Below the pieces are notes generated by a model. The model was not told where the DNA came from and did not search any database. It saw only the letters and a list, made by a program, of their open reading frames with translations. From positions 1 through 61,285 of the forward strand of contig JBBDQS010000008.1 in NCBI GenBank assembly GCA_040905805.1: 61,285 nt of DNA. The letters run 5' to 3'. The stretch comes from Egibacteraceae bacterium (lineage in GTDB: Bacteria > Actinomycetota > Nitriliruptoria > Euzebyales > Egibacteraceae). Positions 4,871 to 44,337 of this stretch are shown here, piece after piece. The translations under genes were made by a program, and so were the position numbers. The number at the start of each line of letters is the position of its first letter. Position 1 is the stretch's first letter.

Positions 4871-5854
4871 ATGAGCAACTCGCCGCGCACCCGCCTGAAC
4901 GCCGTCATCGCCGACCAGCACCACCACTTCGCCACCGCGCAGGCCGCCGCCTGCGGGGTCAGCGCGCGCGTGGTCGCCCGCATGCACCGCACCGGCGAGA
5001 CGACGCGCGTGCACCGGGGCGTGTACCGCATGGCGAGCGCCCCGGTGACCTGGCGGGGGCGACTGATGGCGGCCCTCTTGGCGGCGGCCCCACCGATCAC
5101 CGCGCCCCGGGTCGTCGGTCCCCAGGACGCAGCGGTCGCCTCGCACGGGTGGGCCGCCAAGCTGCACGGCATCGAGCGCATCGACACCCCCGAGTCTCCA
5201 GAGGTGACCGTCGCGGTGCCCCACGCCCTGGCGATCCCGGAGGTCCGCGTGCACCGGACCCGCCGGTTGGAACGCTGCGACATCACGACGGTCGACGGCA
5301 TCCCGGTCACCAGCGGTGCACGCATGGCCGTGGATCTCGCCGCGGGCCTCGACGAGGCGAACGTGATGGCCCTCGCTGACGATCTCATCTGCCTGCGCGC
5401 CACGACCCGGCCGTGGCTGCACACGCGCGCGACGGCGCTGTGCGCCGGGCGTCGCCACGCCGACGTGCTCGTGCGGATCACCGCACCCGAGGCCGAAGGC
5501 GAGTTCTGGTCGTGGCTCGAGCGCACCTTCGACCAGACGGTGGTCCGGGCCTTCGACCTCCCGCCACCCGCCTACAACGTGCCCCTGCACGACCGTCGGG
5601 GCCGCATCGGCATCGCCGACGCCTGCTGGGAGGGTGCCGTCACGGTAGTCGTCGAGCTCGACGGACTGCGCTTCCACCAGCTGACCGGCCAGCGCGGCAA
5701 CGACCAGCGCAAGCACAACCGCTACGCCACCGCCGGGTACGTCCCGCTGCGCTTCGGCTATCGCGACGTGGTCCGCGAGCCCGATCACGTCGCCGCTGTC
5801 ATCGCCGAGGCCCTCGCCGGCGGCGGCCTGCAGACGGCGTCGGCCGGGCGCTGA
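4871..5854 (+). CDS. DUF559-type endonuclease-like protein with AbiEi-like N-terminus
   Basis: The 327-residue protein starts with an AbiEi-like winged-helix region (TAQAAACGVSARVVARMHRT, then RVHRGVYRMAS). It ends with a DUF559/Vsr-like nuclease-fold segment (VVVELDGLRFHQ, then NDQRKHNRYATAGYVPLRF). Actinobacteria often carry several such proteins and their role is not established; the AbiEi-like part suggests DNA binding. No strong ribosome site precedes ATG 4871, and the long frame continues upstream without coding character. Its neighbour is nucS on the other strand. Confidence 0.75.
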   Translation: MSNSPRTRLNAVIADQHHHFATAQAAACGVSARVVARMHRTGETTRVHRGVYRMASAPVTWRGRLMAALLAAAPPITAPRVVGPQDAAVASHGWAAKLHGIERIDTPESPEVTVAVPHALAIPEVRVHRTRRLERCDITTVDGIPVTSGARMAVDLAAGLDEANVMALADDLICLRATTRPWLHTRATALCAGRRHADVLVRITAPEAEGEFWSWLERTFDQTVVRAFDLPPPAYNVPLHDRRGRIGIADACWEGAVTVVVELDGLRFHQLTGQRGNDQRKHNRYATAGYVPLRFGYRDVVREPDHVAAVIAEALAGGGLQTASAGR

Positions 5855-5870
5855 GGGGTCCAGGGCACCG

Positions 5871-6671
5871 CTACGGTGCGCTCGACCCCTCACCCACGGC
5901 TGTGGGCCGGGCGTCCCTTGGTGTGCCCCCGTCGGGCTCGACGACCGCCGGGTCGCCGACGGCGACCACACCGGGTTCCAGCACGGTGGCGTACCAGCGG
6001 CTCCAGCCCGGGTGGCGGTCGTGGGACATGCGCATGAAGTCGCCGTCGACGAACCAGCGGGCGTTCTTCGCGCACGGGGTCGCCGGGAGGGACAGCTCGG
6101 CGAGCACGCCGCCGACGCGAAGCCGGGTGCCCGACCGCAGCGCCGCCCAGTCCAGGCCCGACAGGGCGAGGTTCTCGCCGGCGTTGCCCGCGGCGATGGG
6201 GTGGCCCTCGGCGTGCAGCTCCGCGATGACCTCCGCCGACCACAGGCACAGCGCCTGCCAGAGGCGACCGTGGAAGCGTCGGTCAGCCTGCCGATCGCCC
6301 TCGACGCCGTCGAGTCCGACCGCCGCCGCGGCCACCGGCAGCTTGGGCACCCCACCGCCCGAACGGTGGATGCCCGCCACCGCCCCCGCCGTCCGGACGG
6401 GGCCGACACCGAGGCGCACGAGCGTCCGGCCCGCCGCGCTGAGGTCCGCCAACGCGGCCTGCACGACTGCCAGCACGCCGTCGGGGTCGGCGCCACGCGC
6501 GTCGAGCAGCCGGGTGATGCTGGCCTCACGGATCGCGGCGACCGACGGCTCGCCCGGCGCCGGCGGGGACTCGACCAGATCCTGCGCGACCCCCTCGGTC
6601 AGCTGGTCCCACCAGGCGTCGAGCACCTGGAGGGTTCCGGCTACGTCGCTGCGCGTCCACTGGCTGCCCAT
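5871..6671 (-). CDS. MOSC-domain protein
   Basis: Residues ~95-250 of this 266-residue protein match the MOSC (molybdenum cofactor sulfurase C-terminal) pattern: GVPKLPV at the entry, GDRQADRRFHGR, AGNAGENLALSGLDW, and the conserved cysteine in LPATPCAKNARW. MOSC proteins such as YiiM bind molybdopterin and transfer sulfur or reduce N-hydroxylated compounds. The first ~90 residues (WTRSDVAGTLQVLDAWWDQL...) are an extra helical region that I do not recognise. ATG 6671 was chosen because residues encoded further upstream look non-coding. It converges on the plus-strand gene ending at 5854. Confidence 0.8.
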   Translation of the reverse strand: MGSQWTRSDVAGTLQVLDAWWDQLTEGVAQDLVESPPAPGEPSVAAIREASITRLLDARGADPDGVLAVVQAALADLSAAGRTLVRLGVGPVRTAGAVAGIHRSGGGVPKLPVAAAAVGLDGVEGDRQADRRFHGRLWQALCLWSAEVIAELHAEGHPIAAGNAGENLALSGLDWAALRSGTRLRVGGVLAELSLPATPCAKNARWFVDGDFMRMSHDRHPGWSRWYATVLEPGVVAVGDPAVVEPDGGTPRDARPTAVGEGSSAP

Positions 6672-6753
6672 GTACCCAGTCTCGCCCCGGCAGGCCCCCC
6701 TCGCCAGACCAGCGCGGCGGCGCCCTACCGTGTCGGGCCCCGGACACAGTGAA

Positions 6754-6782
6754 GGGCCCGGCGCTCTTGTCGCACCGGGCCC
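6754..6782. terminator. Inverted repeat downstream of clpC
   Basis: GGGCCCGG (6754-6761) and CCGGGCCC (6775-6782) form an 8-bp perfect stem with a 13-base loop. The repeat lies ~110 bp past the clpC stop codon on the minus strand. There is no poly-T tract, so termination is only a reasonable guess. Confidence 0.35.
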
Positions 6783-6889
6783 GCTGTCGGGTCTTGGCTC
6801 CACCCACCGGTCCCACCGGCTCTTGTCGCCGGCTGGTCCCGTCGTGGCGGGGAAGCCCTGTCGCAGATTCTACCCCGTCGGAGCCGTCT

Positions 6890-9184
<2,295 letters not shown>

Positions 9185-33724: not shown

Positions 33725-34243
33725 ATGCCAGCAGGGCGTCGCCGCCTGATCGGCCTGGTATCGGTCGCGGGTGTGGCCCAGGCCTTCGTGCTCGTCGGCC
33801 TCCTGCACCGCCGGTCTGACGAGCTCGGTCACGCGCACGAGGCCGCGTACATCGACCCCGTCGCCCACTGGCTGCGCGACTCCGTGCTGTACGCCCCTGC
33901 CGGGGTGGTGGTGCTGCTGGTCGCCACCCTGCTCACCCGCCGCCTCGCGAACCGGTGGCTGCGCACGACCGACGGCGTCGGGGCGGCGATGCTGTGGGCC
34001 GGGCTCGGCGCCGCGATGTACGCGGTGGTCAGCGTGCCCGCGGCCATGGTCCACGGCGCGCTCTTCTCGTCCACGGTGGTGACCCCGCTGCTGTCGGCGG
34101 TGCAGGGCGCGATCGTCACCCTGCGCTACTCCTTCGGCCTGCTGATCGCCTGCGCCATGCTGCTCGGGCTGCCGTGGACGCGCCACCGTCGGGCGGCCCG
34201 CGCGCCGACGACCTCCCGTTCGCCCGTGTCCACACCGACGTAG
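33725..34243 (+). CDS. Four-helix membrane protein upstream of multicopper oxidase
   Basis: The 172-residue protein has four hydrophobic helices (about 10-28, 54-74, 89-110 and 130-150) and a polar loop rich in His and Asp (RRSDELGHAHEAAYIDP) facing outside by the positive-inside rule. GGAG precedes ATG 33725. It ends 9 bp before the multicopper oxidase and is probably in the same transcript. I do not recognise the family. Histidines in the loop could bind metal. Confidence 0.75.
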   Translation: MPAGRRRLIGLVSVAGVAQAFVLVGLLHRRSDELGHAHEAAYIDPVAHWLRDSVLYAPAGVVVLLVATLLTRRLANRWLRTTDGVGAAMLWAGLGAAMYAVVSVPAAMVHGALFSSTVVTPLLSAVQGAIVTLRYSFGLLIACAMLLGLPWTRHRRAARAPTTSRSPVSTPT

Positions 34244-34252
34244 GAGAGCACC

Positions 34253-36208
34253 GTGCTGACCAGACGACAGCTGCTGCAGATGGGCCTCGTGGGCGGCGCC
34301 GCCGTGCTGCTCCCGTGGGAGCGGGCCATCGTGGCCCTGGCCCAGAGCCCGTCGACGACGCCGTTCGCGGTCGACCTGCCGATCCCGGCGGTGAAGTCGC
34401 CGACCTCGACCGACGACACGACCGACTACTACGAGGTCGTGATGCAGCACGCCGAGGTCGAGATCCTGCCCGGCGTGCTCACGCCCGTGTGGGCCTACGA
34501 CGGGCTCTACCCGGGTCCGACCATCAAGGCCCGCAGGGACCGCACGGTGGTGGTGACCCAGGTCAACGAGCTCGACGTGGACGCGAGCGTCCACAACCAC
34601 GGCGCCCACGTGCGACCCGAGGACGACGGTCACCCCGTCGACCTCATCCCGCCGGGCGGGCAGAAGGTCTACACCTATCCCAACCTCCAGCGCGCGGCGA
34701 GCCTCTGGTACCACGACCACGTGATGCACGTGACGTCGCGCAACGTCTACATGGGACTCGCAGCCTTCTACCTGATCGGCGACGAGGTCGAGGACGCGCT
34801 CGACCTGCCGACCGGCGAGTACGACATCCCCATCGTCATCCAGGACCGCAGCTTCGAGGAGGACGGGACGCTGCGGTTCGTCGACAGCATCAACAGCGTG
34901 CTCGGCAACACGATCGTGGTGAACGGCAAGCCCTGGCCGCGCCTGGAGGTCGCCAACCGCAAGTACCGGCTGCGCTTCCTGAACGGCTCGAACACCCGCG
35001 ACTACGAGCTGGCCCTGGACTCCGGCGACGACCTCGTGCAGATCGGCACCGACGGCGGCCTCATGCCCGAGCCGAACCGGGCGTCGAGCATCATGCTGTC
35101 ACCCGCCGAGCGGGTCGAGATCGTGATCGATTTCGCCGACGTGCCGGTCGGCGACTCGGTCGTGCTGAAGAACCTGATCGGCAACCCCAACATCGGGTTG
35201 GACGACATCATGCGCTTCGACGTCGTGCGCTCGGAGGACGATCCCGTCGGTGCGGTGCCGCCCACGCTGCGGCCCGTGCCGGAGCGCGGCCCGGCGCGCG
35301 TCACCCGGGACTTCGACATGGACTTCAGCGACGAGCTCGGACTGTGGGTGATCAACGGGCAGCCCTTCGACGAAGACCGCATCGACGTGCGCCCGCAGCT
35401 CGACGTCCCCGAGATCTGGCGGGTCCACAACAGCGCGGGGGCGCCCCACCCGTTCCACATCCACCAGGGGATGTTCCAGGTCGTGGACCGCGACGGGGAG
35501 CCGCCCCTGCCCGCCGAGATCGGCATGAAGGACACCGTGCAGGTGAACCCCGGCGAGACGGTGAGCTTCCACACGGTCCTCACGCGCTACACGGGGGTCT
35601 ACGTCTACCACTGCCACAACCTGGCCCACGAGGACCACGACATGATGGCCCAGATGGAGATCGTGCCCGCAGACATACCGGAGTTCTCCGACATCGCCGG
35701 GCACACCCACGAGGAGGCGATCCTGGCCGTCGCCACCGCGGGCATCACCACCGGGTTCCCCGACGGCACGTTCCGGCCCCAGGACCCGGTGACACGCGGC
35801 CAGATGGCCGCGTTCCTCCAGCGGGCGCTGGAGCTGCCGTCCGGCGCCGGCGGCGGGCAGTTCTCCGACGTGGGCGGCCACACCCACGAGGAGGCGATCG
35901 CGGCCGTCGCCGCCGCGGAGATCGCCGCCGGCTTCCCCGACGGCACCTACCGGCCCCAGCAGCCGGTCAGCCGCGACCAGATGGCCTCCTTCCTCCAGCG
36001 GGCGCTGGACCTGCCGCCGGGCGGACCCCACCCGTTCACCGACGTGGCCGGCAACCCCCACGAACCGGCGATCGCCGCGGTCGCCCAGGAGGGGATCGCG
36101 TCCGGCTTCCCCGACGGCACCTACCGCCCGCGCCAGCAGGTCACCCGCGGGCAGATGGCGGCGTTCCTGGCCCGGGCCCTGGACATGGACACGCCGACCC
36201 CGGCGTGA
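34253..36208 (+). CDS. Multicopper oxidase with three C-terminal SLH domains
   Basis: The 651-residue protein starts with a Tat-type signal (MLTRRQLLQMGLVGGAAVLL). The oxidase part (~50-470) has all copper-ligand motifs: HNHGAH, LWYHDHVMHVT, HPFHIHQGMFQV and VYHCHNLAHEDHDMM. From ~480, three S-layer-homology repeats follow (ITTGFPDGTFRPQDPVTRGQ, IAAGFPDGTYRPQQPVSRDQ, IASGFPDGTYRPRQQVTRGQ). SLH repeats bind pyruvylated wall polymers, so the enzyme should sit on the cell surface. Substrate (metal, phenol or other) cannot be told. GTG 34253 follows GGAG. Confidence 0.93.
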   Translation: MLTRRQLLQMGLVGGAAVLLPWERAIVALAQSPSTTPFAVDLPIPAVKSPTSTDDTTDYYEVVMQHAEVEILPGVLTPVWAYDGLYPGPTIKARRDRTVVVTQVNELDVDASVHNHGAHVRPEDDGHPVDLIPPGGQKVYTYPNLQRAASLWYHDHVMHVTSRNVYMGLAAFYLIGDEVEDALDLPTGEYDIPIVIQDRSFEEDGTLRFVDSINSVLGNTIVVNGKPWPRLEVANRKYRLRFLNGSNTRDYELALDSGDDLVQIGTDGGLMPEPNRASSIMLSPAERVEIVIDFADVPVGDSVVLKNLIGNPNIGLDDIMRFDVVRSEDDPVGAVPPTLRPVPERGPARVTRDFDMDFSDELGLWVINGQPFDEDRIDVRPQLDVPEIWRVHNSAGAPHPFHIHQGMFQVVDRDGEPPLPAEIGMKDTVQVNPGETVSFHTVLTRYTGVYVYHCHNLAHEDHDMMAQMEIVPADIPEFSDIAGHTHEEAILAVATAGITTGFPDGTFRPQDPVTRGQMAAFLQRALELPSGAGGGQFSDVGGHTHEEAIAAVAAAEIAAGFPDGTYRPQQPVSRDQMASFLQRALDLPPGGPHPFTDVAGNPHEPAIAAVAQEGIASGFPDGTYRPRQQVTRGQMAAFLARALDMDTPTPA

Positions 36209-38994: not shown

Positions 38995-40617
38995 CTAGTC
39001 GGGGGGGCTCAACTGCAGCCAGTTGTAGAAGGCTGCCTGATCGCCCTCGAAGGAGTAGCGGGCCCGGTCGACCGTGGGGAACTGCGTGGCGGTAGCGTCC
39101 AGCTGGGACAGCAGCACCAGGCTGCCGGCCGCCGTCGATGCGTTCGGGATGATCTCCGAGAAGTCGTCGAAGTCGACGTAGGCGGTGCGGTCCGAGACGG
39201 AGACGATGCGGACCATCCCGGCGGTGTCCTCGGAGAACCAGCTCCAGTAGTCGTGCGCGCGCTCCGCAGCGGTGGGACCCTCCAGCAGCGCGTCCATCGT
39301 GGCGCGCAGGACGCCCGCGACCGGCACCGTCCGCGGGAGGGGGAAGACCTCGCCGGTCTGGTCGCTGTCCGGGCCGCTGAAGAAGACCGAGACCTCCACG
39401 TCGCCGCCCAGCCAGCCAAGGAGGCGCACCGCAAAGCTCGCCGTCTGGTCGCGGCGCACCGAGGCCCCGGGACGGTAGGAGCCGTCCAGGTAGCCGGCGG
39501 CCAGGCCATGCTGCGCGGCACCGTTGACGTTGGCGAAGTGGGCGTTGCCCGGCGGCACGTCGCTGAACGCCTCCTGGTCGCTGGCCAGATCGGTGTCGGC
39601 GGCGTACTCAGCGGCCCGCAGCAGCATGGAGGCCATCTGGTCACGGCGGACCGGGAACGACGGCCCGAACGCCCCGTCGTCCAGGTGGCCGGGGCCGCCC
39701 TGCACGATGCCGGCGGCGGCCAGCCGGCGCACCGCCTCGTCGTGGGCGGAGCCCGCGGGCACGTCGGTGAAGCCCTCACCGGGCGGTGGCAGATCGACGC
39801 CGCCGGCCTCCAGCGCGCGGAAGACGAACGCGGCCATCTGGTCACGGCGCACCGAAAGGACCGGGCGGTAGGTGTTGTCGGCGTACCCGGTGACGATGCT
39901 GTGGGCGGTCGCGCAGTCCACGTTCAGCCGGTGCGCCGTGGAGATCTGCTGACGATCGGCGAAGGGGGCGGACTCCAGGTCGGCGTTGGTGATGAGTGGG
40001 CACGACCATCCGTCCGAGGACACCGGGCCGGCAAAGGCGCCCTCACCCTCGATGTGCTCGCCCGCGGGCAGGCGGTCCTGGCGCAGCGCCGCCAGGTCCT
40101 CGGGGTCCTCGGGGTTGGTATCGTACTGCGCGAAGCCGGCGAACGTGATGGCGGCGGGCAGGTCCAGGCAGCGCGGGTCGAACGCGGCGCGGTACCACTG
40201 GCCGTCGAAGTCCAGGTCCCCATCACAGACCGGCGTGGCGTCGTCGAAGTGGGTGGCCACCACCCGCAGGTCCCCGTCCACGGAGTGCACCGACAGCTGG
40301 CCGGCGGGGAACCCGTGGGTCTCGGCGAAGGTGTTGAACACCCAGGCGATCTGGGTGTTGCCCGCCCAGCCGGGATCGGTGGCCGGGTCGGTGGGCTCGG
40401 CCACGCGCAGCGCGAACGCCAGTTCGCTCTCGGTGTACTCCGCGCACACCTCGAGGATCTGGACCTGGGGCGCGGTATCAGCGGGGGGGTCGGCCTCCAC
40501 GCACAGCTCGTGGCCGGTGGCAAGGGCGTGTGGACTGCCCGCCAGGCTGAGCGCACCTGCCAGCGCGAGCACGACCGCGACGACGAGGATCCGGGCAACG
40601 GGGCGGTGGACGGACAT
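38995..40617 (-). CDS. Secreted SLH-domain protein with C-terminal GerMN-like domain
   Basis: The 540-residue protein has a signal peptide (MSVHRPVARILVVAVVLALAG...HALA). A ~180-residue unrecognised beta-rich domain follows (TQIAWVFNTFAETHGFPAGQ, a solute-binding look). Three SLH repeats span ~230-420 (VTGYADNTYRPVLSVRRDQM, VQGGPGHLDDGAFGPSFPVR, AAGYLDGSYRPGASVRRDQT). A GerMN-like domain closes it (VEVSVFFSGPD, VLRATMDALLEGPTAAERA, DRTAYVDFDDFSE). GerMN domains bind in spore and cell-envelope settings. It is likely a surface-layer component. Confidence 0.85.
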   Translation of the reverse strand: MSVHRPVARILVVAVVLALAGALSLAGSPHALATGHELCVEADPPADTAPQVQILEVCAEYTESELAFALRVAEPTDPATDPGWAGNTQIAWVFNTFAETHGFPAGQLSVHSVDGDLRVVATHFDDATPVCDGDLDFDGQWYRAAFDPRCLDLPAAITFAGFAQYDTNPEDPEDLAALRQDRLPAGEHIEGEGAFAGPVSSDGWSCPLITNADLESAPFADRQQISTAHRLNVDCATAHSIVTGYADNTYRPVLSVRRDQMAAFVFRALEAGGVDLPPPGEGFTDVPAGSAHDEAVRRLAAAGIVQGGPGHLDDGAFGPSFPVRRDQMASMLLRAAEYAADTDLASDQEAFSDVPPGNAHFANVNGAAQHGLAAGYLDGSYRPGASVRRDQTASFAVRLLGWLGGDVEVSVFFSGPDSDQTGEVFPLPRTVPVAGVLRATMDALLEGPTAAERAHDYWSWFSEDTAGMVRIVSVSDRTAYVDFDDFSEIIPNASTAAGSLVLLSQLDATATQFPTVDRARYSFEGDQAAFYNWLQLSPPD

Positions 40618-40693: not shown

Positions 40694-41728
40694 TCAGTCG
40701 ATCAGCCAGACCCGCCGCAGGGCCCACGTCGTCGCCGTGCCCCGCGCCGCGCGCGGAGGCCCGGGCTCCCGCGCGTCGACGAACCCCAGAGGGGTGTCGA
40801 GGCGGTAGTCGGTGTGGGTGCCGCGGTACCACATCTGGTCGACCGTGGCCGGCAGTGGACCGCCGAGCGCCACCCAGTCGGGTCGCACGAGCGCCCGGCC
40901 ACCGGCCGTGCCGGCGCCCGGCACGGTCACCGGCTCGCCGGCGACGTGCAGCCGGACCTGCCCGTCACCGGCGGGCTGCGTGCCGCCGTCGAGCAGGGAG
41001 GCCGGGCCGGTGAGCTGCGCGGCCCACAGGTCCGCGGGCTGCTCGTAGATCTCCCGGGGGCCACCGCTCTGCACGACGCGCCCGGTGCGCAGCAGGACCA
41101 CCCGGTCGGCCACGGCGAGGGCCTCGCCCGCGTCGTGGGTGGCGTACACCGCCGCGGCCCCGAGGGCGCGGCGGCGGTCGCTCATCTCCTCCTGCAGCGT
41201 GGCCCGCAGGGCGGTGTCGAGGTGCGCGGTCGGCTCGTCGAAGAGGTACACCGACGCCTCGCGGGCCAGGGCGCGCGCGAGGCCGACCCGCTGCTGCTGG
41301 CCCCCGGACAGCTCGGCGGGCCGACGCTCCGCGAGCTCCGCGATGCCCATGCGCTCGAGCATGAGGCGGGCCTGCCGGCGGGCGTCGCGCGCGCGCGCCC
41401 CGCGGCGCCGCAACGGGTAGGCCACGGTGTCCACCGCGGTCATGTGCGGCCAGAGCGCGTAGTGCTGGAACACCACGCCGACCTGGCGACGCTCCGGCGG
41501 CAGCGACCGGGCGGGGGTCGCGACCGCCTGGCCGGCCACGTCCACCTCCCCGCGCGTCGGCGACACGAACCCGGCGACGAGGTGCAGCAGCGTCGACTTG
41601 CCCGCACCCGAGGGGCCGAGCAGCGCGACGGCCTCGCCCGGCTCGACGAGGAGGTCCACCCCGTCCAGGGCGAGCACGCGGCCGTAGGCCACCGCCACGT
41701 CGCGGCATGCCACTGCGGGGCCGGTCAC
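40694..41728 (-). CDS. ABC transporter ATP-binding protein (ferric-iron type)
   Basis: The 344-residue ATPase has Walker A LLGPSGAGKST, Q-loop VFQHYALWPHMT, signature LSGGQQQRVGLARAL, Walker B VYLFDEPTAHLD and the switch His in VYATHDAGEA. A C-terminal TOBE-like region (VRPDWVALGG...) follows. It starts 4 bp after the permease and completes the importer encoded at 40.7-44.3 kb. Confidence 0.93.
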   Translation of the reverse strand: MTGPAVACRDVAVAYGRVLALDGVDLLVEPGEAVALLGPSGAGKSTLLHLVAGFVSPTRGEVDVAGQAVATPARSLPPERRQVGVVFQHYALWPHMTAVDTVAYPLRRRGARARDARRQARLMLERMGIAELAERRPAELSGGQQQRVGLARALAREASVYLFDEPTAHLDTALRATLQEEMSDRRRALGAAAVYATHDAGEALAVADRVVLLRTGRVVQSGGPREIYEQPADLWAAQLTGPASLLDGGTQPAGDGQVRLHVAGEPVTVPGAGTAGGRALVRPDWVALGGPLPATVDQMWYRGTHTDYRLDTPLGFVDAREPGPPRAARGTATTWALRRVWLID

Positions 41729-41732
41729 CGGA

Positions 41733-43352
41733 TCACTCGAATCCCGTCGGGCGTGCCCGTCCGCGCTGCAGGAGCATGGCGGGGCCGGCTACGGCCAGCA
41801 CCGCTGCAGTGAGCAGCACCGCCAGCGCGGAGGTGGCGAGCACGTCGCCCAGCTGGTTCAGGTTCAGGATCACGACCGCGAGCGTCTGCGCCCCGGGGCC
41901 GTAGAGCAAGGCCGACATGGTCAGCTCGTGGAGGGCGAAGACGAAGACCAGCAGCCCACCGGCCGCGATCGCGGGGCGCAGCAGGGGCAGCGTCACCGTC
42001 CGGGCCGCCGCCGCTCGTCGCGCGCCGCTGGCGTGGGCGGCGCGCATGAGGTCGGGGGGGATGCCGTCCAGACCCGCCGCCAGCGAGCGGTGCCCGATCG
42101 CCCAGAACTTCGCGAGGTAGGCGACGAGGATCAGCGCCAGCGTGTCGCGCAGCCGCGCCCCGTGGGCCAGCAGGACGGCGACGGCCAGCGCCGAGCCCGG
42201 CAGCGCGAAGGTGAGCACGGCGGCGGTGCCCAGCGGCCGGCTCCACCGCTGGCGGGCGACGACGGCGAGCAGGCCCCCGAGCGCCAGCGTGCCCACCGCG
42301 GCGCCGACCGCGAGCTGCAGGCTGTTGGCGGCGGCCTGCCGGGCGGGTCCGGCGAGCACCGCGGCGAAGTTCGCCAGGGTCCAGTTGCCGGGCGTCGGCG
42401 CGACCCCGACCGCCGGTGACAGGGCGATCAGCACCAGGGCGAGCAGCGGTAGCAACACCGCCACCGCGAGGTAGGCCCAGATCGCCAGCGCCGGCAGCCA
42501 CGGCCGGGGGCCCGCGATCGCGCCGCCGGCGGGGCTGCCGGTCCGCACTGCGCGGAACCGCAAGCCGACGGCCAGGTCCGTGAACCCGACGACCACGAAG
42601 GCGACGACCACCAGCAGGGAGGACAGGAGCAGCACGCGCCCGAACGCCACCGGGTCGGCCGACAGCACGAGGTCTTGGTAGATGCGGGTCGTCACCGTCG
42701 AGAACCCCGCTGGGCGACCGAGGACCGCCGGCACGCCGAAGGCGTTGGCGGCACCCACGAAGACCAGCGCCCCCGCGGCGACCAGGGCGGGGCGCAGCAG
42801 AGCCAGCGTCGTGGTGCGAAACGCCGTCCACGCGCTCGCCCCGCTGGCTCTGGCCGCGCGCTCCAGGTCCGGCTCGGCCCGCACGTTGAGCGCCGCGGCG
42901 ATGATCGCGTAAGCCAGCGGCATGACGTTGACCGTGACCACCGCCACTACCCCGGCGGCGCCGTAGATGCCCGGCACCGCGACGCCCGTCAGCTGTTCGG
43001 AGAGGCCGGCCGTGCCGTACGCCCGCCCCCAGCTGAGCGCCGATACGTACGGGGGCACGAGCAGCGGCAGGACCAACCCCAGGCGCAGCCAGCGTCGGCC
43101 CGGCGCCGCGCTGCGCTCGGTGACCCAGGCGGCGGCGGTCGCCGCCGTCAGGGCGAGCACCACCACCACGGCCGAGGTCCACAGGGTGTTGACCAGCGGC
43201 CGGGCGAGTGCGCCCCCGGTCAGCCCGGCCATGGCCTGGGGGCCGTCGGCCAGCGCAGCGGCGAACAGCTCCCCCAGCGGGAAGACGACCAGGGCGGCGA
43301 GGGCCCCGAGGGCGACCAGCCCCGCCAGGGGCTTGGTGAGCCGCTCAGCCAC
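41733..43352 (-). CDS. ABC transporter permease, double-length (ferric-iron type)
   Basis: The 539-residue membrane protein has about 12 helices and two permease modules, as in FbpB-type iron permeases. Each half has an EAA-loop (RAARASGASAWTAFRTTTLA and MRAAHASGARRAAAARTVTL) that contacts the ATPase. ATG 43352 overlaps the binding-protein stop by 8 bp. Confidence 0.92.
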   Translation of the reverse strand: MAERLTKPLAGLVALGALAALVVFPLGELFAAALADGPQAMAGLTGGALARPLVNTLWTSAVVVVLALTAATAAAWVTERSAAPGRRWLRLGLVLPLLVPPYVSALSWGRAYGTAGLSEQLTGVAVPGIYGAAGVVAVVTVNVMPLAYAIIAAALNVRAEPDLERAARASGASAWTAFRTTTLALLRPALVAAGALVFVGAANAFGVPAVLGRPAGFSTVTTRIYQDLVLSADPVAFGRVLLLSSLLVVVAFVVVGFTDLAVGLRFRAVRTGSPAGGAIAGPRPWLPALAIWAYLAVAVLLPLLALVLIALSPAVGVAPTPGNWTLANFAAVLAGPARQAAANSLQLAVGAAVGTLALGGLLAVVARQRWSRPLGTAAVLTFALPGSALAVAVLLAHGARLRDTLALILVAYLAKFWAIGHRSLAAGLDGIPPDLMRAAHASGARRAAAARTVTLPLLRPAIAAGGLLVFVFALHELTMSALLYGPGAQTLAVVILNLNQLGDVLATSALAVLLTAAVLAVAGPAMLLQRGRARPTGFE

Positions 43353-44337
43353 CGAACGCCGAGCGCCACTCCTCCAGCAGGGCCTCGCGCTGCGCGAAGG
43401 TCTCGTCGTAGTCCGGGGCGATGGCCGGCTCGGTCTGGTGCTCCCACTCGACGTCGTCGCGGACCGGCTGCCAGCCGGTCCCGGCGATCGCCGCCTGCCC
43501 GTCCTGGCTGAGCACGAAGTCCACGAACGCCTCGCCGGTGTCGCGGGCCGCCGCCTCGCCGAGCACCGCGATCGGGCTCATGACCTGGATCGCCCCGGGC
43601 TCGGGCCACACGAGCTCCACGGGCGAGCCGTCCTCGATGGCGTCGCGCACCAGCTTGTCCAGCAGCATGCCGGCGGCGTACCGACCGTCGGCCACACCCG
43701 CCAGCACCTCGCCCGGCGCCTGCAGCTGCGTCGTGCCGTTGTCGGCCAGGGCCCGGAAGAACTCGGTGCCGAGCTGCTCCGCCTGCGCGAAGTAGCCCAG
43801 GGCGACCTGGCCGGAGCCCGCGAAGCCCGGGTCGAACACGGCGACCTGGTCGGCCAGCTCCGGGTCGGCCAGGTCCTGCCAGCTCGTCGGAGCCGGGGCG
43901 TGGTCCTCGCGGTGCGCGATGACGATGTTGAGCACCCGCGTGCCCCAGTAGGTGTCGGCGCGCATCGCCTCGGGCAGCGCGTCGGCCTCCGCCGGCTCGA
44001 AGGGGTGCAGCAGGCCCTGCGCCTCGTACGCCAGCATCGATGGCGGGTCGGTCATCCAGAACACGTCCGCCCGGATCTGCCCCTCCCGCTGCTCGGCGGC
44101 GACGCGGGCGTTGAACTCCGCTGTCGGGGCGCGGAACACCTCGACGTCGACGTCGGACACCGCCGACCAGGCGTCCACCACGGCGGCGACGGTGTCCTCG
44201 GTGACCGTGGTGTACAGCCGCAGCGCCTCGGTCGCGCCGTCGTCAGGCCCGTCGCCGGGCGTGCCCGCGTCCGTGCCGCAGGCGGCCAGCGCGAGCGCGA
44301 GCGCGACCAGCAATCCCGTCACCATCCGTGTCCGCAT
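43345..44337 (-). CDS. ABC transporter substrate-binding lipoprotein (ferric-iron type)
   Basis: The 330-residue lipoprotein has a lipobox LAAC with Cys20. The bilobed-receptor pattern runs LRLYTTVTEDTVAAVVDAWS, ADVFWMTDPPSMLAYEAQGL, FDPGFAGSGQVALGYFAQAE and a C-terminal YDETFAQREALLEEWRSAFG, as in class 6 iron or phosphonate receptors. With the double permease and ATPase it forms a three-gene importer. Iron is likely but not proven. Confidence 0.9.
   Translation of the reverse strand: MRTRMVTGLLVALALALAACGTDAGTPGDGPDDGATEALRLYTTVTEDTVAAVVDAWSAVSDVDVEVFRAPTAEFNARVAAEQREGQIRADVFWMTDPPSMLAYEAQGLLHPFEPAEADALPEAMRADTYWGTRVLNIVIAHREDHAPAPTSWQDLADPELADQVAVFDPGFAGSGQVALGYFAQAEQLGTEFFRALADNGTTQLQAPGEVLAGVADGRYAAGMLLDKLVRDAIEDGSPVELVWPEPGAIQVMSPIAVLGEAAARDTGEAFVDFVLSQDGQAAIAGTGWQPVRDDVEWEHQTEPAIAPDYDETFAQREALLEEWRSAFGG

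Follow-up and report, generated by a model that had tools for sequence, protein, structure and literature searches.

A multicopper oxidase that ends in three SLH domains raises the question of what a wall-bound copper oxidase oxidises in place. To our knowledge, bacterial laccases have mostly been studied as free or spore-coat enzymes. The gene lies in the window, i.e. the whole stretch of 61,285 nucleotides that was analysed, in a genome (G000) of 3.6 Mb in 166 contigs. It is directly preceded by the gene of a small membrane protein. On balance, we lean towards reading this pair as a cell-surface copper oxidase, namely a wall-tethered CotA-like laccase with a membrane partner that handles copper. 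Domains, copper ligands, gene order and the census of anchors are computed results; export, attachment to the wall, oxidase activity and a copper function of the partner are inferred. The pair is composed as follows.

33725-34243, plus strand: four-helix membrane protein, 172 aa, directly upstream of the oxidase (helix prediction, alignment)
34253-36208, plus strand: multicopper oxidase with three SLH domains, 651 aa (open reading frame and Pfam)
34253-34342, plus strand: signal peptide read as twin-arginine type, residues 1-30 (TRRQLLQ ... ALA; sequence)
34592-34600, plus strand: copper ligands H114 and H116 (HNH; sequence and alignment)
34712-34720, plus strand: copper ligands H154 and H156 (HDH; sequence and alignment)
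35447-35464, plus strand: copper ligands H399, H402 and H404 (HPFHIH; sequence and alignment)
35609-35644, plus strand: copper ligands H453, C454, H455, H459 and M464 (HCHNLAHEDHDM; sequence and alignment)
35681-35809, plus strand: SLH domain 1, motif VTRGQ (Pfam, genome SLH search)
35861-35986, plus strand: SLH domain 2, motif VSRDQ (Pfam, genome SLH search)
36032-36160, plus strand: SLH domain 3, motif VTRGQ (Pfam, genome SLH search)

The oxidase is encoded by a single open reading frame with a GTG start codon. The Pfam families Cu-oxidase_3, Cu-oxidase_2 and Cu-oxidase were matched with 90, 83 and 31 bits, all above the curated cut-offs. The SLH family was matched with 148 bits over three stretches, each over its cut-off. 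These domain matches are far beyond chance. Hardly any spacer separates the two parts: the oxidase match extends to residue 472, and the first SLH match begins at residue 478. The N-terminus (MLTRRQLLQMGLVGG...AIVALA) reads by eye as twin-arginine type under the usual motif rule. In the closest relative found (locus L071) the corresponding signal motif is TRRQFLQ. The oxidase would leave the cell by the Tat route. A foreign origin of the gene pair was considered and set aside, since its GC and GC3 contents resemble those of the flanking genes.

All 12 type 1 and trinuclear copper ligands are present, and all are invariant in the 17 aligned sequences, a selection of our own that includes the window sequence. 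D125 and E460 are likewise invariant (17/17). By our own reading they correspond to D116 and E498 of CotA, acid residues near the trinuclear site. An AlphaFold model of the oxidase reached a pLDDT of at least 90 at 400 of the 651 residues. Residues 476-581 and 583-651 of the SLH region fell below 50, and this part of the model was not usable, because no other row of the alignment carried SLH domains. When the model was submitted to Foldseek, the CotA laccase ranked first, with TM scores of 0.83 by target and 0.65 by query and 36% identity. Once exported, the oxidase would accordingly be expected to adopt a CotA-like fold holding a type 1 copper and a trinuclear copper cluster. The three-cupredoxin fold, the copper ligands and the acid residues near the trinuclear site are shared with the Bacillus enzyme. 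The Tat-type signal and the SLH trimer set the window protein apart from CotA, which sits in the spore coat and has no SLH domains.

Three other identities were considered among the NCBIfam models. The best one, CueO, gave 253 bits against a cut-off of 525. The PhsA o-aminophenol oxidase equivalog gave 219 bits (cut-off 950) and FtsP (SufI) 183 bits (cut-off 581). FtsP has lost its copper ligands, which are kept here. With all three scores far under the cut-offs, these identities were rejected and the protein was filed as a CotA/laccase-like multicopper oxidase. Copper tolerance through a CueO-like enzyme that oxidises Cu(I) on the cell surface is nevertheless a possible, if doubtful, reading. 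CueO, the copper efflux oxidase of E. coli, is the best model, shares the Tat-type signal and is itself a multicopper oxidase. Some relatives of the window oxidase also lie beside copper genes: DUF1775, CopC and CopD genes precede an oxidase pair in G243, and a CopD gene precedes the oxidase in G262 and G114. On the other hand, the score is less than half of the cut-off, the Met-rich insert was not seen by eye, and the window neighbours scanned include no copper gene. CueO is a free periplasmic enzyme, whereas the window oxidase bears a wall anchor. We therefore keep to a laccase-like oxidase.

In order to place the SLH domains in context, the wall proteins of the genome have to be considered. 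At E ≤ 0.001 it contains 67 SLH matches, the best three of which are those of the oxidase, beside 36 CWB2 matches (E 0.001). SLH use is also found close to the oxidase gene, outside the gene pair:

38995-40617, minus strand: nearby SLH protein with a Germane domain (Pfam)

The genome has one polysaccharide pyruvyl transferase gene (C127:17545-18612), whose product scored 196 bits against CsaB (TIGR03609), just under the cut-off of 213. The same contig holds a UDP-GlcNAc 2-epimerase-like gene (below its cut-off), an L,D-transpeptidase-like gene, two SpoIID/LytB proteins with SLH matches and two more SLH proteins. The region L095:6720-18612 of this contig is likely an SLH and wall-polymer island. 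The 67 SLH matches, together with a CsaB-like gene beside SLH wall proteins, make SLH anchoring plausible, and the oxidase is probably anchored to the wall. The SLH trimer would hold it there via a glycopolymer, pyruvylated if it resembles the known ones. The first-pass annotation had described a Tat-exported oxidase with complete copper ligands and three C-terminal SLH repeats, displayed on the wall. The ligands and repeats are confirmed by the alignment and by Pfam, and the proposed export and display agree with the signal, as read by eye, and with the wall genes of the genome.

The best comparison for the anchor is provided by SpaA and SlhA of Paenibacillus alvei (Firmicutes), which, like the window protein, carry three SLH domains and occur with a CsaB-type gene (PMC6081394; PMC6030368), for which the window genome has the CsaB-like candidate. 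In the window protein the cargo is a multicopper oxidase and the phylum is another one. According to PMC11464976, the SLH ligand in P. alvei is pyruvylated ManNAc, with UDP-ManNAc supplied by the epimerase MnaA. For SpaA, PMC6081394 names SLH-Arg43, Gly29 and Trp13 as contributors to ligand binding. By eye, Arg43 and Gly29 were found in all three window repeats and Trp13 in none. A pattern-based sample of 20 distinct repeats of the genome, covering 30 of the 67 match loci (loci L027-L056), L095 and the window, gave the same picture for Trp13: it was absent from 20/20, and each carries a His one place later. This replacement indicates that the genome has an SLH style of its own. With SLH-Trp13 missing, the repeats may bind a wall ligand other than the known one.

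The first-pass annotation had suggested that the fusion be sought in other genomes. Across the 66 genomes of the class (that of the window included), a search with the window oxidase at E 1e-30 returned 11 matches in nine genomes, window included. As judged from tails and Pfam, SLH domains occur in the window protein only. Three CWB2 repeats are carried by each of four matches (G048, G028, G029 and G024:C21), and neither SLH nor CWB2 is found in the other six (G007, two in G015, G054, G035 and G024:C9). Oxidase matches at E 1e-60 were obtained in 37 of the 396 genomes of the phylum. SLH was again seen by inspection in the window alone among 61 distinct oxidase tails, long tails being seen in part. 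These tails are a subset of the oxidase matches, and the pattern gave none for L087, L091, L130, L132, L141, L145 and others. No further case of the fusion thus emerged from the 11 class matches and the 61 tails. Chromosomes outside the phylum were covered by one pattern-based scan. A threshold of E 1e-20 left 645 of 72,556 plasmid records, none with a single place covering more than 80% of the query; at E 1e-5 one record had such a place. A Paenibacillus match to a query spanning the oxidase/SLH junction was discarded, being annotated as a 420-aa SLH protein. A partial literature search gave no description of the oxidase-SLH combination in the passages seen, where the terms occur apart. As a separate observation, the oxidase relatives L122 and L123 have C-terminal extensions of about 290 aa, that of L122 being of the chitobiase-C-terminal and Fn3-associated type.

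The anchors of the relatives were compared with those of their genomes in a census of 18 genomes (E 0.001). The four genomes with a CWB2-bearing oxidase (G024, G028, G029 and G048) showed zero SLH matches and at least 155-160 CWB2 matches. The closest relative found, L071 in G423, is 59-60% identical to the window oxidase, is listed under Actinomycetota and has no anchor. On the strength of this closest named relative, the window is assigned to an actinobacterium. Its genome (2.2 Mb, completeness not given) showed neither SLH nor CWB2 matches. The anchor of the oxidase mostly follows that of the genome; G015, with 155 CWB2 matches, and G054, with 52 SLH matches, speak against a strict rule, since no anchor was seen on the oxidases from these two genomes. 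A quick tree with 63 rows paired the window protein with L071 (SH-aLRT 99), with G048 next (88), and placed the three other CWB2 rows elsewhere. An independent origin of two CWB2 groups was not adopted, as a tree holding the four rows together was not rejected (p-AU 0.88). Three changes of anchor state are counted on the drawn tree, or two if the CWB2 rows form one clade. The four relatives resemble the CWB2 wall proteins of Clostridioides difficile in their three repeats, the number required for anchoring there according to PMC4973711. The window oxidase differs in carrying SLH itself and not CWB2. An anchor of its own, and a different anchor on some relatives, suggest that the oxidase acts on something just outside the cell. 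An oxidase with its own wall anchor, whose relatives bear the other anchor of their genomes, would mean that the surface location is under selection. Such a protein would also offer a natural scaffold for displayed oxidases.

As to the substrate, the nearby transporter genes had been taken as a lead.

40694-44337, minus strand: ABC importer with a binding protein of SBP_bac_6/11 type (Pfam)

The importer called iron-type in the first-pass annotation is indeed there, 4.5 kb from the oxidase gene, on the opposite strand and with three other genes between. Its iron type did not hold up as well: no feature identifies it as specific for iron, although some matches have iron labels. The 330-aa binding protein gave 11 PDB matches (up to 47 bits), of which five, the best two among them, are labelled as iron proteins. 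The others carry aminoethylphosphonate, pyridoxal phosphate, putrescine or unspecified labels. The best NCBIfam models were 2-aminoethylphosphonate ones, far below cut-off. In FbpA-type Fe(III) importers a tandem tyrosine serves as iron ligand, and no tandem tyrosine (YY) occurs in the sequence of this binding protein. The importer is not conserved beside L071, where the ABC genes are by eye of molybdate type. The mixed weak matches, the missing YY and the genes near L071 leave the iron link of the importer weak.

These data bear on a surface ferroxidase, in which the wall-bound oxidase would produce Fe(III) from Fe(II) for import by the nearby transporter. Multicopper oxidases include ferroxidases, and the type of the importer, its distance and the iron labels on its best matches fit such a role. 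Its strand, the intervening genes, the 2-aminoethylphosphonate models, the lack of YY and the molybdate-type genes of the closest relative argue against it. The ferroxidase role raised in the first-pass annotation is thus possible and not favoured; the importer lends it little support and we consider it unlikely. Mn(II) is also oxidised by some multicopper oxidases. A surface enzyme of this type would cover the cell in Mn oxide, and display on the wall would suit such mineral deposition. No Mn-specific match was obtained for the oxidase or for the neighbour proteins scanned, however, and this role is judged still more improbable. For a laccase-like enzyme on the wall, it is envisaged that single electrons would be drawn from a reduced extracellular substrate and passed to O2, which would yield water. 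As candidate substrates, we place small phenols and other organics, or Cu(I), ahead of both Fe(II) and Mn(II).

A different lead came from the neighbours of the relatives. Genes for cupredoxin proteins with CWB2 stretches adjoin the CWB2 oxidase in three of the four CWB2 genomes: G048, which has two, G029 and G024. The cupredoxin match of G029 lies just below the cut-off (25.8 against 27). These genes are found at L110:1736-2593 and 5090-7234 (minus strand), L112:6315-8561 (plus strand) and L113:5545-7950 (plus strand), and three of the four proteins also contain a CHRD domain. In G028, the scanned neighbour of the oxidase is a CWB2 protein without cupredoxin, and a pattern scan, which had missed one of four known cupredoxins, detected none. 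Beside a haloarchaeal relative, the divergent neighbour gene is annotated as plastocyanin/azurin type. The cupredoxin-CWB2 proteins are possible wall-bound electron donors. The window oxidase might, by extension, be the end of an electron chain in the wall, leading from a wall-anchored cupredoxin via the wall-anchored oxidase to O2. The adjacent genes in three of four genomes and the haloarchaeal neighbour speak for it. However, the same pattern, with its one miss among four cupredoxins found by Pfam, gave no cupredoxin within the window, the neighbouring cupredoxins have one or two CWB2 stretches where the oxidases have three, and adjacency is no proof of electron transfer. We hold this chain to be rather unlikely. 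Taken together, the copper and cupredoxin neighbours point to traffic of copper and electrons on the outer side of the membrane, but none of them proves a substrate.

The other member of the gene pair is the membrane protein. The stop codon of its gene overlaps GGAGAG, which is likely to be the site where ribosomes bind for the oxidase. Four membrane helices are predicted for the protein, which contains six His; no Pfam family was found for it. Arg-rich stretches precede helix 1, follow helix 4 and lie between helices 2 and 3. By eye, they suggest that both ends are inside, so that H28, H48 and H110 would face outside. The structural model was poor (pLDDT 65), and no fold matched it at E 0.001. 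Within the class, one of 66 genomes, that of the window, was found to have the partner, which was absent from the four CWB2 genomes. No homologues were detected among viral contigs. At L071, a 53% identical protein (its start masked) is encoded right before the oxidase.

The link between the oxidase and a small His-containing membrane protein, made in the first-pass annotation, is borne out by this second adjacent pair. Two further genomes may add to it, where a membrane region and the oxidase share one open frame (G410, L134; G102, L137). In the frame of L137, positions 211 to 245 contain no start codon; for L134, translation of a separate oxidase could begin at the GTG at 203. The fused regions of L134 and L137 are related to one another (hhalign, 97%). 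In the same comparison the window/L071 partner pair matched the L134/L137 pair at 32% (E 0.0005), L134 alone at 20% and L137 alone at 0.8%, the last being no better than the four control sets, each below 1%. Shuffling gave z values of 2.0-3.8 for the partner against L134 and L137, with some shuffles scoring higher and controls reaching 2.0. The fused regions are thus possibly related to the window partner. The four-row partner alignment shows no variation at H28, H48 and H110. On the copper oxidase reading of the pair, these three His would lie together on the outer face and serve, most likely, in copper loading or Cu(I) hand-over. Each part of this system is known; what makes it interesting is how the parts are combined, together with an anchor that mostly agrees with that of the genome and possible fusions of the partner.

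A wider interpretation would be a class-wide, wall-localised copper redox module, in which one oxidase lineage, with exchangeable tethers and with either the partner or wall cupredoxins, delivers electrons from outside the membrane to O2 in the wall. It would be tethered in the wall by an SLH or a CWB2 trimer, or at the membrane by a four-helix domain fused to it. This joint reading, tethers included, is put forward as speculative and is rather unlikely at present.

When the profile of the four-row partner alignment was searched in the 396 genomes, three of its own rows and four weak matches (E 1e-4 to 0.007) were returned. A weak match downstream of a Geodermatophilus oxidase was dismissed because it reads by eye as a signal peptidase. 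The DUF6220 proteins (L138, L139) and the membrane proteins of L057, L058, L154 and L155 could likewise not be tied to the partner (four control sets, hhalign below 1% each, shuffle z up to 2.0). Of the four weak profile matches, the two that were fetched belong to proteins about 2090 aa long in which an oxidase motif also occurs. Weak Pfam oxidase domains were obtained for the one protein scanned, and the matches had not been selected on that basis. These proteins (L154:9331-15603, plus strand, and L155:1679-7954, minus strand) have 7-8 predicted membrane helices and copper genes nearby, and it is the L154 protein in which the weak oxidase domains were seen.
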